Part shown: positions 25,675 to 63,040 of the stretch, piece by piece
Numbering within the stretch: position 1 is the stretch's first letter
How the letters are laid out: every line of letters starts with the position of its first letter
Source: Rugalucina vietnamica
Taxonomy: Eukaryota; Mollusca; Bivalvia; Lucinida; Lucinidae
Direction: 5' to 3'
Length of the DNA: 64,000 bases
Assembly: GCA_964017185.1 (NCBI GenBank)
Contig: OZ024870.1
Location: forward strand, 24,203,621-24,267,620
Program-made: the position numbers and the translations under genes
The notes under the pieces: model-generated
The model's database searches: none
Seen by the model: only the letters and a program-made list of their open reading frames with translations
Told to the model about the DNA's origin: nothing

Positions 25675-25919
25675 CAAAAAAAATCAAAGACAATTCGAAG
25701 CAGATGTATGCAGGCAAACTGGTCTATAATCTAATCATAGTCCAACTACAACTTCCATTTATCTATAAAGCTATATTCACACGTTTACTGCAGTTTCAAC
25801 AATCATTGCCATGTTCATGCCACATGATTTCCATCATGCTATTTCATTTATATTCCTTATAGACTGTCTGTAACAGAATGTGTGTTCGTTTAAGAATTAT
25901 ATGCCTCTTAAATATTGAA

Positions 25920-26678
25920 TCAGGTACTTATACCATGAAACATATCGTAAGCCGAATGAGCAGCTATTTTCCCAATAGGTGGCCACTCAGTTACATTAAC
26001 TTAACTAAAACTATGAAAACACACATAAGGCGCCAACAGCACAAAAAATTTTAAACATCAAGACATAAAAAAGAACCACCACAGAAGTATCGCCTTGGAA
26101 CGATCAGTAACACAAAGTTACTGGCGGGCTTAAACCGGTTTTACAGGCGCCTAACCTCACCCTCAGCTTCTGCAGTGGTTCATAACATTTAGTTAGTTCT
26201 TCGATCCTCGTGGTGAATCTCTAACTAGTCAATGAATCATCAAGAACAAACATATAAATCAAGATAAACAGCCTGATGAATCAAAACCCAGAACTCACAG
26301 ATTGAGTAAGCTGCCCGACGATGGAGATCCCTGGGCGCCGAATAACCTACTAACTCCGGAGCAAAAGAAAAACACCAGTTGGACCCCGGTGGGCCAAGCA
26401 ACAGACAAGAAGCTCCGGCCCCAACCAACTAAAATGAATAGCTTTAAGTCGGGGCCATCATAGAGTCTGACACCCGACCCACCGGCGTGCAATTAAAGAA
26501 GGCAGCATAGTTATCAACCATGATTGGGTTAAAAACTAAGCATGCAGACTGTCGCATATCATTCAAGTTATAACCTATACGTCTGTTACGTGTTATGATT
26601 TTTCTGAATTGAAAAGAAAAATCATTAATTCCTATAAGTTTCTTAAATTTGTAAACCAAGTCACCATAAAATTCAGGT
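25920..26678 (+). repeat. Dispersed repeat family C copy between two convergent genes
   Basis: tcaggtacttataccatgaa to caccataaaattcaggt. It is the closest to copy 1 in its distal part and fills most of the 1.2 kb between the CNBD and TRIM-like genes. Confidence 0.82.
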
Positions 26679-29406: not shown

Positions 29407-29639
29407 GAGCCACCTTGTGGAAAAACAACAATGTGGTTTTTGAACAGGCCCGACACAAACCGGGCTGTACAGCCACAGAAGAAAGCTAGAAGCTAGAAAT
29501 TTCGGATTTAAGAAGAGGAGGGATTGCATTTTCCGAGTAGCGAAAACAAAGGCGTTGATCAGCTTCGCGGTTACCGCGAAGCTGATCTGCGTCTTTGTTT
29601 TCGCATATGCAGATTGTTGGTTTTATCACCAGGCGGCTC
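29407..29639 (-). mobile_element. MITE family A, copy 4
   Basis: gagccaccttgtgg to atcaccaggcggctc. The internal hairpin is gatcagcttcgcggt / accgcgaagctgatc. aaataat borders both sides. Confidence 0.85.
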
Positions 29640-30171
29640 AAATAATAATATAAATGAAATAGAAAAGACATTTGTATTAATGAAATTAATGAAAACGTTA
29701 ACATATTTGCAATAATAAGCTGTCAGTCACAACTGCCAAAAAGGTACCATGTCGAGGCACAGAACCCATGACATATCACAAATCAGCGCTTGCATATAAC
29801 TACATGTATGTAAACGTATTGTCCACGCCTTAGTACATGTAGCAATTTGAATACGGAAATACAGACGGGAGCTATGAAGAGGCCTGGAGAGGGTATTGTG
29901 GAAATAGAGTTTAGCTTCTGTATGTGCAAATAAGGGGATACGAATAAAAACACGTAGCCATCTACTTAACACATCACATACATAATATGGTCATTCATGA
30001 GGAGTCCACTAAGCGAAGTATAAAAGGGACTAGTACAATCATGAACACGTCCCCATGAAGAGACTAAAGCAATATATACATGTATTCTAGATAGAATATG
30101 CACAAATGGTAGACCAAGTTAGCGGCTATTTCTTAAAAGACGGTCATTCAGCTTCCTAAGCTGAACCAAAT

Positions 30172-42100: not shown

Positions 42101-42170
42101 GCATAATTATACCCCCAGCATTTATGCCGACGGGTATATAGCTTTCGCTTTTCCGTTCGTCCGTTCGTAT

Positions 42171-42201
<31 letters not shown>

Positions 42202-45200
42202 CGTTTCTTCGTTCGTAATTCCGGAACGTTCGTGGAATTTACGTCAAAGTTTTGGTTAAAGTTTCTCTTGAGGTGTATATCTCATCAACCAATGGTCAGA
42301 AACCATTCATATTTGGACCATAGGTACCCTATAGGGTTTGCTTTGTTTCCATGAGTTCGGACCCCAGGGCCCATGCCCGGGGGTAGGGCTGGAGGTCAAA
42401 ATCTAGGTCACCTTTAAAATATGCTGTTTACAATTTTAATGTTTCTTCTATAAGTCCATATCTTAACAAACAATCATAGGGATGTATTCTTATTTAGTTC
42501 ATAGATACCCTATAGGGTTTGCTTTCATACTCCATGCTCGGTACCTTCTCCAGGGGGTGGGGCTAGAGGTCAAAATCTAGGACTTATTTATAATATGATA
42601 AATATCATGATAAATTTTCTGTAAGTCTGTTTTCTTGACATCCACAAAGTTTTATCAGAAAGCATTCATACTTAGACCATAGGTACCATGTAAGGTTCAG
42701 ACACTAGTCTAGGGTCCATGTGCGGGGGGTGGGGCTAGAGGTCAAAATCTAGAACTTCTTTAAAAAATGTATTTCTTTACTTTTCTTTACCACCATGTTT
42801 AGAAATGATTCGTACTTGCACCAAAGGTACTCTATAAGGTTTGCCTTGTTCCTAATGGTATTAGACTCTAGGGTTCGTGCCCTGAGGGTGGGGCTAGAGG
42901 TCAAAATCTAGGACATCTTATTTTTATTTTTTTTTTTTTTAAATATTATTGAAGAATGACATTCTACTTTACATCTAGGACCGAGGACCTGACCCTCAAT
43001 GTCCGCGATCAAGTCCTAGATTGAGTATACAAGTCAGCTCTGTATACTGCTCTAAAATAGATCTGTCATTCTACTACAACCCCCCCCCCTCCCAATGGTT
43101 TTAGACAGTGTTTTTTGCAAATATAAATTTGTAAGATTTACTTGTTGAGGGCACTCTCTTTCATCAGGAATTGAGGTTTAATGTGTCACTGTCAGTGAGC
43201 ATGTCTGGATTGGGGGCGGTGGGCTGAGGGGTGGGGGCGTTGGAGGGAGCTACCAGCCGGGGGTATACGTGCCTCTCAAGGCACTTTTTCTAGTAAATTC
43301 TGCACAAACGAAAGAAACAATGGTGCACTATACAATTGTTGCCCTTGAGTGAGGGTGACATGACAATTTGTTCACCCGAGGCAGGTAATATTGCCCTCAC
43401 CGAACCACTTTTAAAACAAATTAGCGGCATGCCACACGACAAACGCATGTAACTACAAAAGCAACAGCACATTTAGGCGAATATGACGTCAGAGGGTAAT
43501 AAGATCATGCGACATGACAGAAAAGCACCCTCCACGTGCACTGTAAACAAAGGCATGTGACTACAAGTGCAGCTGCACGTTTTAAGGCAGATATGACGTC
43601 AGAGGGTAATATGATCATGCGACATGACAGAATAGCACCCTCCACGTGACATGCTCTGGACCAATCAAAATCCATGCTCAGCCAATGAATATTAATGAGG
43701 TATAATAATATAGGGTTATTGCACTGATATCGTTGATTATTAATTAACTTATTAGTATATAGTACTTATACAGAGAATTTGGTCTGTGTCATACTGGTGA
43801 TGTTTCTTTTTTCGTGTAGTCTATACTGGATTTCACCTCGACCTAATACAGCTGACCTCGCACTAATACGGTTGACCTCGTATCTATATGGATTGACCTG
43901 CTATCTATATGGAAATCCATACACCTGATGGGTCAGAATTCACGTGCAAGGTCACGCGCCGTGTTGAATGTGTTGAAACAAAAACAATGGCGGCGATTCA
44001 GCCGATCGAGTGAAATAGTGAACCAACAAGCAAAAATCATGTCAGCATCTTTGAAAAGAATGTCAGACATGGGCGCTAAGAATGGCGAAGTTATGCTTGA
44101 GGTGCTAGCGGATGAAATGGGTCGATATGGACATTTGACAGTTAATTAATAAAAATCTCATTAATCAAGTTATTTCGTATTGGACCAGTTACAGGTCCTC
44201 GGTCAGCTGTATTGGACCTCGGCCTTCGGCCTCGGTCCAATACAGCTAACCTCGGACCTGTAACTGGTCCAATACGAAATAACTTGATTAATAACATTAT
44301 AATATTGTCCCGAGTTGGGATATCGAAGGACGCGAGCTTGCGAGTGTCCGGAGATTACCCAACGAGGGACAATATTCACCGATATCAGTGCGATAACCCT
44401 TTTATTATATAGCTATAAATATCTGCTTCTCATATTTGATGTTTTGTTGAGAGTTAGCCTTAAAAAATTAAAATATCTACACGAAGACCGCGGTAATATC
44501 TAAACAAATGTGATATCTTTTTTGCACTAGTGCAATATCAGATGATATCATTTTTGCACTATTACTTTCGGAAGCACATTTTGCAATCGAATCATTGTTG
44601 CTGACATTTTCTCTTCTTTTTTTCGGCTTAAGTTGCTTAAATCTGAAAGTGACAAACTTCGGCTGACGTTTCGGCCCGGTATGACGTCATGTCCCAATTT
44701 TACAATTTTGCATGATGACCCTCAAGTCAAGAATTTGGCAATGTTTCATAAAAAGAATTTTTCGCTTTTAACAAAGTGTGCAATATCAAGTAAGTGTGCA
44801 GATATCGTCTGATATCTGCACACTTGTTACTTGGCTTTTATCCCTACGTTTTAATCATTTGATATTTATAGCTATATAATAATATATTTTACAGCCTCAT
44901 CACATTTACATACACGTAAAAGTTTTCATCCTTATGCTTGTTCAGGGTGGACTTCAGTTACTCATTATTAGCACGTTTTGCGTGGTGCCCGGTAAAATAG
45001 ATAAAAGCCAGCATGTGCTCGAGAATAATGCTATATTAATACATGGCTTTCTTTTCATTAATATATGGCTGTTAATATCATGGTGACACAGTTATTTTTG
45101 CGATAATAACTTAACAGATGAGATTCTTACATGTACATGTATTTGTACATATTTTAGTCAAATTAAGTGACATGCACTAACTGGTCATAACTAAAGAAAT

Positions 45201-47880: not shown

Positions 47881-48304
47881 AAAACGTGCATAAATTAGTT
47901 ACTTGGTCCTCGTGGGGAATCTCTAAACACCATTGAATGTAAACACACAAACATTTACAGTATGTCGTGTATGTGTATGTGTCGTATATGCAGCTGTAAA
48001 ACCAACTTGTTAAAACATAAACCTGCGTTATTTTGATTTGTGGTTTTACGTCCCGATTAACAATTTCAGTTACACGAAAAACAAACATTATAAAAAGCAG
48101 GAAAATATAAATAAAACTCCAGTAAGTTCATAAGTGAATACTAGTCTAAACGCAATTTTACGCGGTGGGCTGTGGTTTAATTTACCTAGATGATGGTAAA
48201 AATAAGATAAGCAAGATGAGCCTCAATCATTTTTAGCTTGCCTGCACGAAGTGCACAGAGCTATTGCTGTCACCTCGGTCGTCAGCGTTTACGTGTACGT
48301 CTGT

Positions 48305-55760: not shown

Positions 55761-55894
55761 AAAAACGTGTTTTAGAACTGCCATATCTGGAAGGCCCGTC
55801 TTGCACTTATTCAATTTCTAAAATTGGTATGTACATGCATTTCTAATCGAACCCAGACCGGACTGCACATTCTACATTCTGACCAAGTAGAGCA

Positions 55895-55975
55895 CTGTAG
55901 CACCGATAACTGTCCATCAACGATAACTGTCCACCATGGACACTTATCGTTGCAGCCGCAACGATAACTGTCCAC
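55895..55975 (+). repeat. Left 81-bp terminal inverted repeat
   Basis: It holds four alternating copies of the motif GATAACTGTCC / GGACACTTATC in both orientations. It is identical to the inverse of 61952-62032. Confidence 0.95.
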
Positions 55976-56079
55976 AAGCTAAATGGACAGTTATCGTTGA
56001 GAATGTAGGTTTATAATTTACTTTCAACGATATCTGTCCATTTTCGTAGAACACCACGATATTTGCTCAATGATGTTAA

Positions 56080-56960
56080 ACCGTTTCGGTTAGTGCATAC
56101 CTTGACAACCACTTACCGAAAATCATTCATACTTGGGCCATAGGCACCCTGTATGCCAGGCTTTCATTCCAAGGCAATGAATCCCGGGGTGGGGCTTGAG
56201 GTTAATATACAGACCACCATAAAATGGCTTTTCTGAGGTCTAATTTTGCAGGTGTCTATGACGGTCTTGACAGCATAAATACTTTGATCATATCATACGT
56301 ACCCTTCTAGAAGTCCAGATCTTGGCAACTGCTTATCAGAGAAGATTTAAACTTGGACCATAGGTACCCTGTTAGGCTGGCTTTCATTCTATGACATCAC
56401 ACCCATATGTCTATGCCCGGGGGTGGGACTAGAGGTTAAAATCTAGAACACCTTCTGTTCTGTGGTATAGTTTTCTAGAAGTCTAGATCTTGGCAATAAC
56501 TTATCAGAGAGGATTTAAACTTGGACCATAGATAACCCGTAGGGTTGGTTGCCTTTCATTCGAGGCTCCTAGGTCCATGGCGGGGGGTGGGGCAAGAGGT
56601 TAAAATCTAGAACATTTTCAAAATTTGGCTGTTTTGCGATATAATTTTTATAGAAGTCATTTTCTTGACAACCACTTACCAGAAAGCATTCATACTTGTA
56701 CCACATCTATCCTGTAGGGTTGGTGCATTGGGCTCCTGTGTTCATGCTAGGGGTGGAGTTAGAGGTTAAATCTAAAACACTTTCATAAATTAGCCAAAAT
56801 TTACATTTTAATTCATATCTTGATAGCTGTAGATCAGAAAGCATTCATACTTGGGCCATTGGTGCACTGTCAACTTAGCTTTTATTACGTGACATCCGAC
56901 ACCAGGGTCCATGCCAGGGGTGGGGCTAGAGGTTGAAAACTAGAACAGCTTAAAATGTTT
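56080..56960 (+). repeat. S1 degenerate tandem array, about five units of 160-220 bp
   Basis: Each unit has ttggaccataggtaccctgt, then ggggtggggctagaggtt and aaatctagaac. Related arrays lie at 42260-42960 and, inverted, at 60830-61660. Confidence 0.8.
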
Positions 56961-58500
56961 TTTTTTTTTTTTTCTTTTACACCTTGACACCCAGTTGGTA
57001 TAAGAACATACTTCTTTCGGATAATAAGTATGTATGACCAGACCCTTAACCCAAAAGTAGTCATAGGTCACAATGACCTAATTTCATGGTCCAGTGATTT
57101 TGTCTTATATCTTGACACTCAGTTAGTATAGGAACATGCTTCTTTCAGATAATGAGTAAGTATGAATAGAATTTTGACCTGAAAGTAGTCATAGGTCACA
57201 GTGACCAAATCTCATGGTCCACTGATTTTGTCTTATATCTTGACACTTAGTTGGTATTTGAACATGCTTCCTTCAGATAATGAGTGAGTATGACCAGACC
57301 TTTGACCTAAAAATAGTCATAGGTCACAGTGACCTAATTTCATGGTCCAGTGATTTTGCCTTATTTTTTGACACTCGGTTGGTATAGGAACATGCTTCTC
57401 ATAGATTATGAGTGAGTATGACCAGATATTTGACCTGAAAGTTGTCATAGGTCACTGCGACCTAATTGTCTTATATCTTGACACTTAGTTGGTATTTGAA
57501 CATGCCTCCTTCAGATAATGAGTGAGTATGACCAGACCTTTGACCCAAAAGTAGTCATAGGCCACAGTGACCTTATTTCATGGTTCAGTGATTTTTCCTT
57601 ATTTTTTGACACTCGGTTGGTATAGGAACATGCTTCTCATAGATAATGAGTATGACCAGATATTTGACCTGAAAGTTGTCATAGGTCACTGCGACCTAAT
57701 TTCATGGTCCAGTGATTTTGTAATATATCTTGACACTCTGTTGGTACAGGAACATGCTTCTTTCAGAAAATGAGTACGTAGGTCCAGACCTTTGACACAA
57801 AAGTTGTCATAGGTCACAGTGACCAAATCTCATGGTCCGCTGATTTTGTCTTATATCTTGACACTTAGTTGGTTTTTGAACATGCTTCCTTCAGATAATG
57901 AGTGAGTATGACTAGACCTTTGACCTAAAAGTAGTCATAGGTCACAGTGACCTAATTTCATGGTCCAGTGATTTTGTCTTATATCTTGACTCTCAGTTGG
58001 TAAAGGAACATGCTTCTTTTAGATAATAAGTAAGTATAACCAGACCTTTGACCCAAAAGTAGTCATAGGTCACAATAACATAATTTCATGGCCCAGTGAT
58101 TTTGTCTTATATCTTAAAACCCAGTTGGTATATGAAAATGCTTCCTTCAGATAATGAACGAGTATGACCAGGCCTTTCACCTTAAAGTAGTCATAGGTCA
58201 CGGTGACCTAACTTCATGGTCCAGTAATTTTGCTTTATAGCTTGACACTCAGTTGGTATGTAAGCATGCTTCTTTCAGATGAGTGAGTACGACCAGACAT
58301 TTGACCCAAAAGCAGTCAAGGGACTTTGTGACCTAATTTCATGGTCCATTGATTTTGCCTTATATCTTGATGCTCAGTTTGTATATGAACAGGCTTTTCT
58401 CATATAATTTGTGAGTATGACCAGCCTTTTGACCAGAAAATAATCATTGGTCACTGAGATCAAATTTCATGGTTTAGTGATTTTGCCTTGTATCTTCTAC
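56960..58500 (+). repeat. S2 minisatellite, about twelve units of about 125 bp
   Basis: The unit runs cttgacactcagttggtata, catgcttctttcagataatg, gagtatgaccagacctttga, agtagtcataggtcacagtg, cctaatttcatggtccagtg. Units differ by scattered substitutions. An inverted partial copy lies at 60590-60830. Confidence 0.88.
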
Positions 58501-59450
58501 AGCAAGAGATGTGTGATCAAGATTTTACATGGTTATGGGTCGATAGCACCGAATTTTTGACTTCAAAATAGTTATAGCTATATTTCATAGTAAAATGAAT
58601 TTGCCTTATATCATCATGGCCTTGGGATGTCTGTGTGGTGAGTTAGAGTTGGCTCCAGTTTGACAGAACCAAATGCAGTCGAGCTACGCTGTCATGCGAC
58701 AGCTCTTATTATTTTTAATAGGATTGCGTTTAGAGATCTGAAAAACATACATATCGTTTATGAATATCATTTTTCGTATACGAACTAACGGACACACTGC
58801 ATAAAATGGGCTTGGACTGTATTCGTTTGACCCTAAATGACGTTTGAATCGGGAAATACAGAATTTTCAACAGATATTTTTAATTCATTTGTTAACATGC
58901 ATGGTTATATTCATCTTTTGTGTATTTTATTAAAACTGATGCAATCTTTAACCTGTTTTATCATATCTTGTGCAGACATCCTGAAAACCTTGCTAAGGCA
59001 TGAAGTACCCTTTTGTAGTTCTTGACGGCAGGGTCATATTTACTGTGGTTGCAGTGTCCGGAGGTAGGTGGCATAGCTATCGGATGACCTGCTTTAAGGT
59101 GTTATCGTCGATGTCTGAGGACGACAGTTTTACTATGTGCACTATAAAGCATCTCACAGCTGTAAACAGACATCGACTACTTTTAAACTTTTAAAACAGA
59201 GAACCCGAGTGTTTACAGTTTCATAAAGGAAGAAATAAAATTTGATTAACATATTTTGTTGATATAATACCTACCATTGTCTCAATCTGTAAAAGGCAGA
59301 TCGAGTTTTTTGCTTATTTCTAACGTTTATTTCAATAGCATACGATACGATACAACCTATCCTATCTTCTCCACAGCAGGACATTTTATATCTGATTGCA
59401 TGCACTTCATAACAGTTTAGTGTGATCAAGTTTTCGTCCTGATCATGGGA
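58500..59450. other. Spacer of the large element, no gene seen
   Basis: About 0.95 kb with no clear repeat, except a stretch near 58675 (cagtcgagctacgctgtcat) that resembles the end of S1-type arrays. Short open frames at 58837-59194 have no recognisable motif. Confidence 0.4.
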
Positions 59451-60590
59451 ACTTTTACCTGTCGTAAACAGTTATCGTTGACAATGCAACTATAAGTGTC
59501 TGTAATGAACAGTTATTGTTGCAAACTCAACCGGGTGTGTCTATCATGTAATGTTTGAATATTTCATTTACTGATTCACACATCCAGATAGTTTAGTGTA
59601 TCACGAACAGATATTGTTTAAACTTTTTTCACTGATTTGAATGATTTCATCTATGGTGAACAGTTATCGTTGACAGTGCAACCGCTTCTGTCTGTAATGA
59701 ACAGTTATCGTTGCAAACTCAACCGGTTCTGTCTATCATGTACAATAATCTTTGAAAATTACATTTGCTGATTCACACATCCAGGACAAGGCTTTTCAGA
59801 TAGATAAGTGTATCAGGAAGAGATATTGTTTAAACATTTTCACCTTTTTGAATGATTTCATCTTTGGTGAACAGTTATCGTTGACAGTGCAACCGCTTCT
59901 GTCTGTAATGAACACTTATTGTTGCAAAACCACCCGATTCTGTCCATCATGTACAATAATCTTTGAATGTTTAATGACTGAATTAGACAGCCTCTTTTCA
60001 AATAGTTGGACGTCTCAGGTGCAGAAATTGTTTGATGTTTGGCTGTTTTGAATCATTTTACCCGTCGTGAACAATTATCGTTGACAGTGCAACCACATCT
60101 GTCTGTAATGAACAGTTATCGTTGCAAACTCAACCGGTTCTGTCTATCATGTACAATAATATTTGAAAATTGCATTTACTGATTCACACATCCAGGACAA
60201 GGCTTTTCAGATAGATAAGTGTATCAGGAAGAGATATTGTTTAAACATTTTCACCTTTTTGAATGATTTCATCTTTGGTGAACAGTTATCGTTGACAGTG
60301 CAACCGCTTCTGTCTGTAATGAACACTTATCGTTGCAAAGCCAACCGATTCTGTCCATCATGTACAATAATCTTTGAATGTTTAATGACTGAAGTAGATA
60401 GCCACTTTTCAAATAATTGAGCGTCTCAGGTGCAGTAATTGTTTGAAGTTTGGCTGTTTTGAATCATTTTACCCGTCGTGAACAGTTATCGTTGACAATG
60501 CAACCATATCTGTCTGTAATGAACAGTTATCGTTGCAAACTCAACCGGTTCTGTCTATCACCCGGTTCTGTCAACCGGTTATGTCACACT
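59450..60590 (+). repeat. Tandem array of 411-bp units rich in ACAGTTATCGTTG
   Basis: The anchor attcacacatccagg recurs at 59574, 59771 and 60182 (last interval 411 bases). Each unit carries two copies of gaacagttatcgttg followed by acagtgcaaccgcttctgtc or caaactcaaccggttctgtc. The similar 99- and 85-residue frames in adjacent units are by-products. Confidence 0.82.
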
Positions 60591-61660
60591 GACAAAAAAC
60601 TACTTTCAGGTCAAAGGTCTAGTCATACTCGCTCATTATCTGTAAGAAGCAAGTTCATATACCAACTGAGTGCCAAGATAAAAGGCAAAATCACTGGACC
60701 ATGAAATTAGGTCATTTTGACCTATGGCTACTTTTGGGTCAAAGGTCTGGTCATACTCAATCATTATCTGAAAGAAGTATGTTTTTATATCAACTGAGTT
60801 TCAAGGTATAAAAGAAAAACATTTTAGATGTTCTAGTTTTCAACCTCTAGCCCCACCCCAGGCATGGACCTTGAGTATCGGATGTCATGCAATAAAAGCT
60901 AAGTTGACAGTGCACCATTGGCCCAAGTATGAATGCTCTCTGATCAACAGCTGTCAAGATGTAGACTAAAATGTAAACTTTGGCTAATTTATGAAAGTGT
61001 TCTAGATTTTAACCTCTATCCCCATCACCAAGCATGAACCCAGGAGTCTGATGCTAGCGCATGGAAACCAACACGACAGTGTATATGTGGCCCATGTATG
61101 AATGCTTTCTGGAAAGCGGTTGTCAAGATATGGACTTCTAGAAAACTATATCGTAGTGCAGCCAATTTTTGAAGGTGTTCTAGATTTTAGCCTCTGGCCC
61201 CACCCATGGGCCCAGGGGCCGGATGTCATGGAATGAAAATCAACCCTACAGCTCCAAGTTTGAATCCTGTCTGATAAATAATTGCCAAGATCTGGACTTT
61301 TAGAAAACTATGCCACAGTACAGCCACAATCTTTGAAGGTGTTCCTGATTTTAACCTTGGGCATGGACCCATAAGACGGATGTCATGGAATGAAAGCCAC
61401 CTCTATAGGATTCCTATGGTTCAAGTTTGAATCCTCTCTGATAACTAGTTGTCAAGATCTGGACTTCTAGAAAACTATACCGCAATACAACCAATTTATA
61501 AAGGTTTCCTAGATTTTAACCTCTAACCCCACTCCCAAGCATGGACCCAGGGACCCGATGTCATGGAATGTAAGCCAACCCTACAGGGTACCTATGGGCC
61601 AAGTTTGAAATTTCTCTGATGAATAGTTGCCAAGATCTGGACTTCTAAAATATATACTGC
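60590..61660 (-). repeat. Inverted S2 and S1 arrays (right arm of the large element)
   Basis: 60590-60830 is the reverse complement of S2 (for example ctggaccatgaaattaggtc). 60830-61660 is the reverse complement of S1 (for example cctctagccccacccc). They can pair with the left arm at 56080-58500. They are followed by a gacacggacacgaacaag-type simple stretch at 61663-61710. Confidence 0.8.
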
Positions 61661-61951
61661 AGTGTGACGCGGACACGGACACGAACAAGAACGGGAACGC
61701 GTACGACCGAGGTTACTACAACAGCCCTTTGCACTTCGAGCAGTCGAGCTAAAAACCAACCGTACAGAGGGCATATGATCCAAGTTTAAATCTTGTCTGC
61801 TAACTGGTTGTCAAGATATAGACTCCTTGTGTTTTTTTGTTTCTTTTCAAAAATGGACAGTTATCGTTGACACTGCAGGTCATATCAACTACAGTAACGA
61901 TAAGTGTCCATGGTGGACAGTTATCGTTGAAAAATCAACGATAGTTGTCCA

Positions 61952-62032
61952 GTGGACAGTTATCGTTGCGGCTGCAACGATAAGTGTCCATGGTGGACAG
62001 TTATCGTTGATGGACAGTTATCGGTGCTACAG
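61952..62032 (-). repeat. Right 81-bp terminal inverted repeat
   Basis: Exact inverse of 55895-55975. Further copies of GGACAGTTATCGTTG continue inward to about 61852. Confidence 0.95.
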
Positions 62033-63040
62033 AGCACAACACATCATATGAAACCATAGCCACTGTGGAAAGGTTTGATTTCTTTCTAAGCTATGCTAAA
62101 TGTAATTATCTTGAATTACGGTGATGTGATCAGACTGCGCGATAGCGTATCAAACTGTCCACATGCATGAAACTGCAGGAGCTATACCCAAAACATAACA
62201 GTTTGTATACGTTTGATGTATTTCAATACATCATAGCTAATTTATTTCAAATCAGCACATCAGCAAACGACTGTCAAGTTTCTAAATGGTATGGTCGCAC
62301 ACGGACAAAGACACTGCATAAGCACTGACGAATGTTATCAAATACATTATTCACAATTTGCATTTGCTTAACCTGTAACAACGATCAAAAGTGGTGTACA
62401 ACAAAAAATAAGCAGTTCAGTATTTCAGCGTTTTAATATATTTCCGCTGATCAGACAGTTGCTGAATTCAGCAGAAATTTCAGCGTTTTATTCTGTCCCT
62501 GTTTGTACAAATGTGCGCGTATAAATTAGACATTTTATTCAGAATAAAATCCAAAATTGGAATAGTAAATATTTTGGAATAGTTTTCATTGCTTGTTTCT
62601 AGCATATGAAAAGTATTTTTTTGATGTCCAAATCTAATAAATAAGTAGATGTCTATTGCAACCAATTATGACACACAAATATGGTCAGTTTTATGACCCC
62701 TGAAAGTAGCCAGCTACCTGCGTCTTTTAAAGCCCCGCCCACTTTGCAACCCTTTGTACAGCGTGTGTACCTGTGTGTGAGCTCCGCCCACTTTGCAACC
62801 CCTTGTGTAGCGTTCATATGAAGCGAAATTTTGTCCATATTTACCACCCTAATAAGCTTTCAAAGGTGACATTCTATGGAAATACTGAATAAATAATGTT
62901 ATTAGCTTCATTGATGTACCCCCCCCCTGTAAATAACTAAGACAAATATATACTGAACAAAAAAAAAGAAACGCAAAATCACGTCACCTGAACTTTTTAT
63001 AATTTGCGCATTCGCCCTTTTTATGCTTTGATTGATTTTT
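62033..63040. other. Unannotated stretch between the large element and a SINE
   Basis: The only regular feature is a short repeat of ccgcccactttgcaaccc at about 62734 and 62785. No gene seen. Confidence 0.35.

Follow-up and report, generated by a model that had tools for sequence, protein, structure and literature searches.

Evidence for a young non-autonomous foldback-type DNA transposon family in the lucinid bivalve Rugalucina vietnamica

The element and its borders

The stretch of DNA analysed here, called the window, comprises 64,000 nucleotides of the Rugalucina vietnamica genome (contig OZ024870.1, positions 24,203,621 to 24,267,620 of the forward strand, assembly GCA_964017185.1). It contains a 6,136 bp element with the termini TGTAG...CTACA, which is very probably a copy of a young family of non-autonomous, foldback-type DNA transposons moved in trans. 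The element is composed of terminal inverted repeats (TIRs), two inversely oriented arms of tandem repeats, a middle stretch and an inner array built on a short word that is also present in the ends (Table 1).

The 81 bases at 55895-55975 recur without a mismatch, inverted, at 61952-62032; one base pair further out the match breaks off. As the sequence GAGCAC is found on both sides of the element, the borders can be read in two ways, either as a 4 bp AGCA duplication with CTGTAG ends or as a 6 bp GAGCAC duplication with TGTAG ends. We chose the second reading because eight of the forty scored genome ends match only from base 2, and because the flanks of 41 pairs of ends agree directly outside TGTAG...CTACA. 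The outermost pair (C at 55895, G at 62032) then belongs to the GAGCAC copies, so that the true TIR has 80 bp. An earlier note, made from the letters of the window alone, had described perfect TIRs of 81 bp, borders at 55895 and 62032 and a predicted AGCA duplication; its 81-base inverted match stands, while the TIR is one base shorter, each border lies one base further in and the duplication is the 6 bp GAGCAC.

Table 1. Features of the element and of its insertion site (positions in the window).
Feature	Positions	Strand	Basis
Left target duplication copy, GAGCAC	55890..55895	.	Flank comparison of pairs
Element, 6,136 bp, TGTAG...CTACA	55896..62031	.	
Left TIR, 80 bp, perfect; four words, outer two in the same orientation, then alternating	55896..55975	+	
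Left subterminal region with words at 55984 (+) and 56025 (-), differing from its right counterpart	55976..56040	+	
Left arm, five repeat units of about 165 bp (L1-L5)	56092..56951	+	
Left arm, twelve 128 bp repeat units	56972..58479	+	
Middle stretch; no window repeat reported, no coding found	58520..59440	.	
Inner array, units of about 205 bp, 411 bp higher-order period, direct words spaced by 41 bp; the end motif is its probable origin	59465..60580	+	
Right arm, two 128 bp repeat units	60577..60816	-	
Right arm, six units of about 165 bp (R5-R0; R0 is a half unit)	60826..61827	-	
Right subterminal word region; one module more than left (arm alignment)	61851..61951	-	
Right TIR, 80 bp, same as left	61952..62031	-	
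Right target duplication copy, GAGCAC	62032..62037	.	

Copies in the genome

The genome searched has 1.09 Gb in 47 contigs. The outer 34 bases of the element occur in 137 exact copies (72 forward and 65 reverse), while the reversed control gave none. A search with all 81 bases yielded 616 candidates, of which 40 were scored; all 40 were 100% identical, the eight mentioned above from base 2 only. Pairing was done by exact 34-mers on a list of 100 of the 137 exact ends that stops short of contig C12. On this list 76 ends form 38 correctly oriented pairs less than 25 kb apart, and 24 ends are without such a partner, including the two ends of a 55.7 kb pair on contig C11 (C11:4311428-4367135). The shortest listed pair spans 128 bp and the longest 18.3 kb, with a median of 10.05 kb; 37 of the 38 fall at 6 to 18 kb, and the copy in the window is the shortest of the pairs read except for the 128 bp one.

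Among eleven copies the mean divergence is 1.8% in the left arm, 0.2% in the left TIR and zero in the right TIR, in line with the recent activity which the earlier note had proposed beside gene conversion. The corresponding mean for the right arm (8%) was not used, since some copies (L014, L019) have gaps and insertions there that distort it. Partner ends recovered by loose scanning differ by one mismatch in 480 bases over six ends (L019, L022, L023, L024, L027 and L032). The 128 bp copy (L035, C6:21928206-21928333) is flanked by a 6 bp duplication of its own, ATGGTA, and holds hardly anything beyond the ends, reading assigning 44 of its bases to the left end and 84 to the right. Such a copy would arise if ends without an interior are mobile, or if an interior was deleted once the copy had inserted. 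This copy is a natural minimal element and suggests how little mobility may require.

Target duplications and empty sites

Flanks were read for 41 pairs, namely the 38 listed pairs, the C11 pair and two pairs on contigs outside the listing (L015, L019). All 41 carry a target duplication, which is an exact 6 bp in 23 cases, an exact 5 bp in twelve and an exact 7 bp in two; the remaining four are three 5 bp and one 6 bp duplications with one mismatch each. The 37 exact duplications compare to a mean of 0.07 and a maximum of 2 when partners were shuffled. The ends of the C11 pair share a matching duplication, GACCTA. The 23 exact 6 bp targets follow the consensus NWGCWN (A or T in 18 at position 2, G in 21 at position 3, C in 20 at position 4, A or T in 21 at position 5), with a central GC in 18 of them, for which the chance probability is 3e-22 at 38% GC. 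The 5 bp targets are, by eye, without such a clear centre.

Two empty sites were seen. The repeat interrupted by copy L011 is unbroken in the window at 29457-29640 (89% identity) and at 54072-53889 (87.5%), and that interrupted by copy L023 at 189-44 (94%) and at 74-206 (87%). The duplicated letters are single at all four sites, exactly at two of them (GCGCT at 54072-53889, GATGA at 74-206) and with a single substitution at the remaining two; the duplication copies of L011 differ from each other by one letter. The earlier note had called for a genome search for paired ends and for empty sites, and both were found; the outcomes which it had named as speaking against a transposon, that is no second copy or related copies with other boundaries, did not occur. 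The identification as a transposon is thus borne out by recurring paired ends, by their duplications and by the empty sites.

Word motif, arms and inner array

In the window the word ACAGTTATCGTTG has 15 exact occurrences and 23 with at most one mismatch, all within the element, against a mean of 0.06 sites with at most one mismatch in shuffled sequence. At two mismatches there are 31 sites, three of them in the window outside the element. The stretch 59450-60590 holds eight exact words, eleven with at most one mismatch and 14 with at most two, so that the count of at least twelve given for it in the earlier note applies at the most relaxed threshold and not at the two stricter ones. Both ends hold words in alternating orientation, the outer two excepted, and in single-stranded form the 156 bases at the left end fold much more strongly than shuffled sequences (z -8.5).

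The arms carry the same two kinds of repeat units, of about 165 bp and of 128 bp, in inverse orientation and in different numbers (Table 1). The inverted match of arm to arm is 78.5% over 936 columns, with identities of the larger units of 90% for L5-R5, 82% for L4-R4 and 81% for L3-R3, and of 88% for the first 128 bp units of the two sides; in each of these cases the left unit has its best match in the right unit named. Co-linear pairing ranks top among the 24 possible pairings of units 2-5, with the runner-up close (334 versus 326). We infer that both arms derive from one ancestral arm which was duplicated inversely and has since diverged by 10-20% or more. Since the outer 80 bp are identical while the arms are that far apart, the ends appear to have been conserved or homogenised independently of the arms.

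An inner word array is present in all eleven complete gene-less copies compared, with 11 words in the window copy and up to 38 in others. Across these copies 223 of 239 inner words have the same orientation, the exception being L013 with seven of its 22 reversed. The 41 bp unit of the array contains one word and an apparent decayed inverse word (two found at four mismatches, the rest by reading), and for this reason the array looks like an amplified piece of the end; the end motif may have been amplified here and have partly decayed.

Two observations on the repeats may be added. A stretch of the right arm near 61696-61755 is 82% like window 48230-48289 and looks foreign. Window 42128-43296 is possibly another element, perhaps of Helitron type, with a TATACCCCC start, a hairpin end (by reading) and four units related to the 165 bp arm repeat (55-73% identical), from which the arm repeats may have come.

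Coding content and the search for a parent

The longest stop-to-stop frame in the element has 100 amino acids, and a six-frame Pfam scan of the element gave only PG_1098_Fer at 16.6 bits, under its cut-off of 27, in agreement with the non-coding interior described in the earlier note. That note had also proposed a longer relative with a transposase at the same ends, which was not found in the parts of the copies read. In these parts no transposase was recognised, the longest copies having been read in part only, and apart from nested insertions the copies read contain no recognised coding sequence. The long copies and interiors (L018, L020/L031, L029, L030/L032, L036-L039) consist of family repeats, reverse-transcriptase frames (688 amino acids in L029 and 754 in L037, recognised by eye), simple repeats and unmatched DNA. 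Six-frame Pfam scans of the unmatched stretches L018:4947-9243 and L020:5402-9852 returned no family; those of L030, L031, L032, L036 and L039 were examined for long frames only, and no transposase was recognised. Of the 55.7 kb C11 copy four pieces were read (11.2 of 55.7 kb); two of them contain family repeats, another a reverse-transcriptase-like frame, and the fourth is mostly unmatched DNA. No transposase was recognised in these 11.2 kb, and the rest of the copy may hold one. Pattern scans of viral contigs gave no hit, nor did a scan of viral contigs for the polymerase described below.

One copy is gene-bearing (C1:18717842-18731632). It has the same 80 bp ends and matching arms (97.5-98.4% in aligned blocks) around 8.9 kb of other DNA, and is without the inner word array. 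The cargo encodes a type B DNA polymerase (PF03175, E 8.7e-21), a 248 amino acid protein resembling origin-binding domains and a zinc-knuckle protein; no integrase domain was detected in the frames scanned. This copy is flanked by a 5 bp match with one mismatch, and its polymerase is, by reading, truncated and joined to a rearranged piece. The polymerase itself is multicopy: there were 13,871 candidates, and the 72 that were scored gave 83 rows. Of 31 rows taken, 23 had frames of 1,109-1,155 amino acids and 13 had stops within the match. Among the 23 polymerase rows on contigs C1 to C10, one lies between listed ends, which is the C1 copy itself, and none of the 22 others does so (exact 34-mer pairs). 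In the only other polymerase copy with flanks read, an 8.5 kb copy on C8 in two pieces, homology to the cargo begins at a border of its own (L033:323 = L017:6648), and the pieces read contain neither TIR-like sequence nor the word. Because a single row of 23 lies between the ends and the C8 copy has its own border, the polymerase element looks like a separate mobile or virus-like element inserted into the C1 copy. The C1 copy (L016/L017) was accordingly rejected as autonomous partner, as it carries this apparently nested element.

The polymerase element (L016:4130-9649, L017:1-6648, L033:323-3501) is multicopy and has a terminus of its own, in which a short tandem repeat is found. The nearest named relatives of its polymerase are from Mercenaria and Crassostrea, cnidarian ones ranking lower. 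The 248 amino acid protein (L016:7696-8439, plus strand) has no Pfam match. Its structural model (mean pLDDT 79) resembles the origin-binding domains of circovirus Rep, papillomavirus E1 and polyomavirus T-antigen, with borderline scores (best E 8.8e-4 among viral structures and 2.8e-3 in PDB, TM about 0.3 by query). A catalytic histidine motif of the usual kind is not evident in its consensus.

Elsewhere in the window, 26402-26469 on the minus strand matches Rfam SECIS_1 at 39 bits (gathering threshold 35) inside a dispersed repeat (25918-26678); it is possibly a chance match or a repeat-borne SECIS-like hairpin.

Interpretation

Long inverted arms, inner tandem repeats, a non-coding middle and target duplications at paired ends place the family in the foldback class, and we are confident that it is young, non-autonomous and moved in trans. 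Insertion duplicates mostly 6 bp (5 bp in about a third of cases, 7 bp rarely), the 6 bp targets being centred on WGCW. A DDE-type transposase made elsewhere would recognise the ends through the word TGGACAGTTATCGTTG. Copies losing or gaining inner repeats would stay mobile, as only the ends would be needed, and the two arms would have arisen by inverse duplication of an ancestral one. TGTNR ends together with duplications of about 6 bp faintly suggest a transposase of the integrase-like group.

Several points weigh against this interpretation. The parts of the copies read hold no transposase gene, and movement in trans, like the trans-acting transposase which the earlier note had suggested, is taken from the lack of coding in the element. 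The superfamily cannot be assigned from ends and duplications, because the duplication varies from 5 to 7 bp; to our knowledge no known family pairs these ends with NWGCWN, and the 5 bp class and the WGCW rule fit none. The role of TGGACAGTTATCGTTG as a protein-binding site is putative. The identity of the ends is in part a matter of selection, since 40 of 616 candidates were scored, all perfect, and later pairs were found through exact 34-mers. Clear co-linearity of the arms is limited to L5-R5 and L4-R4: L2 is equally near to R1, R2 and R3 (81, 81 and 80%), L1 is at most 69% identical to any right unit, and the second 128 bp units of both sides match other units equally well or better.

Satellite-like loci typically show tandem arrays and inverted arms, and the structure could be a satellite or a segmental inverted duplication with arms formed by local rearrangement and a chance match of the flanks; dispersed copies with the same borders, duplications at every pair read and two empty sites virtually exclude this. 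Rolling-circle insertions are not known to create target duplications, and the perfect TIRs and 5-7 bp duplications make a Helentron-type element extremely unlikely. In its favour are the inner tandem arrays, what reads like a short hairpin tail following the 128 bp array (near window 58680-58710) and the related 165 bp units of another possible element at 42256-42940. The arm repeats themselves may have their origin in a Helentron-type element. Such an element with satellite-like arrays (HINE) is known from oyster (PMC7492417). It is also very unlikely that the gene-bearing C1 copy is an autonomous parent, the family being self-synthesising and Polinton-like or virus-derived and the window copy a deletion derivative. 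Shared ends, closely matching arms, the polymerase and 6 bp duplications, which fit Polinton (PMC10045372), agree with such a parent, but the 22 other polymerase rows on C1 to C10 lie outside the listed pairs, the C8 copy has its own border and, in the pieces read, lacks the ends and the word, the polymerase of the C1 copy is cut off and the flanks of that copy match imperfectly.

A further question concerns the inner array, which could be functional as a transposase sink, enhancer or replication site kept by selection, and not a by-product of slippage or gap repair. Its presence in all complete gene-less copies, with the words mostly in one orientation, would fit a function. Against this the copies are young and have inherited the array from a common source, the spacers between words are, by reading, repeated equally faithfully, and the array is missing from the 128 bp and the polymerase-bearing copies, so that we regard a function as unlikely, though not negligibly so. 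A wider proposal appears doubtful, namely that molluscs harbour a superfamily, or a branch of one, of integrase-like cut-and-paste transposons that is new to science, with 80 bp ends composed of one word in both orientations, WGCW-centred duplications of 6 bp (5-7 bp) and large non-coding copies whose inner array is a variable transposase sink setting the activity of each copy.

With a young foldback-type family moved in trans as the preferred reading, the transposase becomes traceable, as ends, cut spacing and target are fixed. The family is recent, with near-identical ends, large non-coding copies, empty sites and a sharp target rule. Whether end motifs repeated within an element control its mobility or merely ride along could be tested on the end-like inner array, as could the way in which foldback arms and satellite-like arrays grow. 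No account of the family was found in the literature searched, although Repbase or Dfam may list it, and a literature search with sequence letters returned only an unrelated yeast paper. For specialists it is a good new family and not a surprise.

Comparison with known systems

Subterminal motifs in both orientations are found in En/Spm, and long repeated TIRs in the sea urchin TU elements and in Galileo; termini and duplication lengths of all three probably differ from those of the element. Insertion without a target duplication, as in Helentrons and HINEs, is not what was found here. The closest likeness in architecture is with Tetris and other foldbacks (PMC4079207), which have long TIRs divided in domains with inner tandem repeats, a non-coding middle and variable copies; for Tetris, too, no autonomous partner was found, and a miniature relative with common ends exists. 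Tetris differs by its placement with Mutator and by duplications of 8-10 bp, the length expected of a Mutator foldback, against mostly 6 bp (5-7 bp), WGCW targets and TGTAG ends in our family, and an inner array seemingly made of the end motif is found here, unlike in Tetris (PMC4079207). The HINE of Crassostrea gigas is likewise a bivalve element with short satellite-like arrays, but where our family has 80 bp TIRs and a target duplication, it has a 3' palindrome and 11-12 bp subterminal inverted repeats (PMC7492417).

Among integrase-related groups, Polinton/Maverick elements have duplications of about 6 bp (PMC10045372), which are found here besides 5 bp and 7 bp classes; the genes of such elements, polymerase B and integrase between the same ends, were not found in the copies read, where the one polymerase is apparently nested. 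IS3EU and GingerRoot usually duplicate 6 bp, and the ends of GingerRoot are mostly TA..TA and occasionally TG..CA, while complete IS3EU elements always have TA..TA (PMC10045372). The family described here has TG..CA ends and, besides 23 exact 6 bp duplications in 41 pairs, a frequent 5 bp class of twelve exact cases. Its TGTAG ends fit the TGTNR termini of Ginger1 and Ginger2, which recall those of Gypsy as well (PMC2836005). Ginger1 has TIRs of 40-270 bp, and its 4 bp duplications of CCGG or CCGT/ACGG were not seen here; animal Ginger2 has 4 bp duplications in AT-rich RTATAY targets, and TDD-4/5 have 5 bp (PMC2836005). Ginger-type elements are known from molluscs in small numbers (PMC10294476), and a source of the transposase among them is therefore conceivable.

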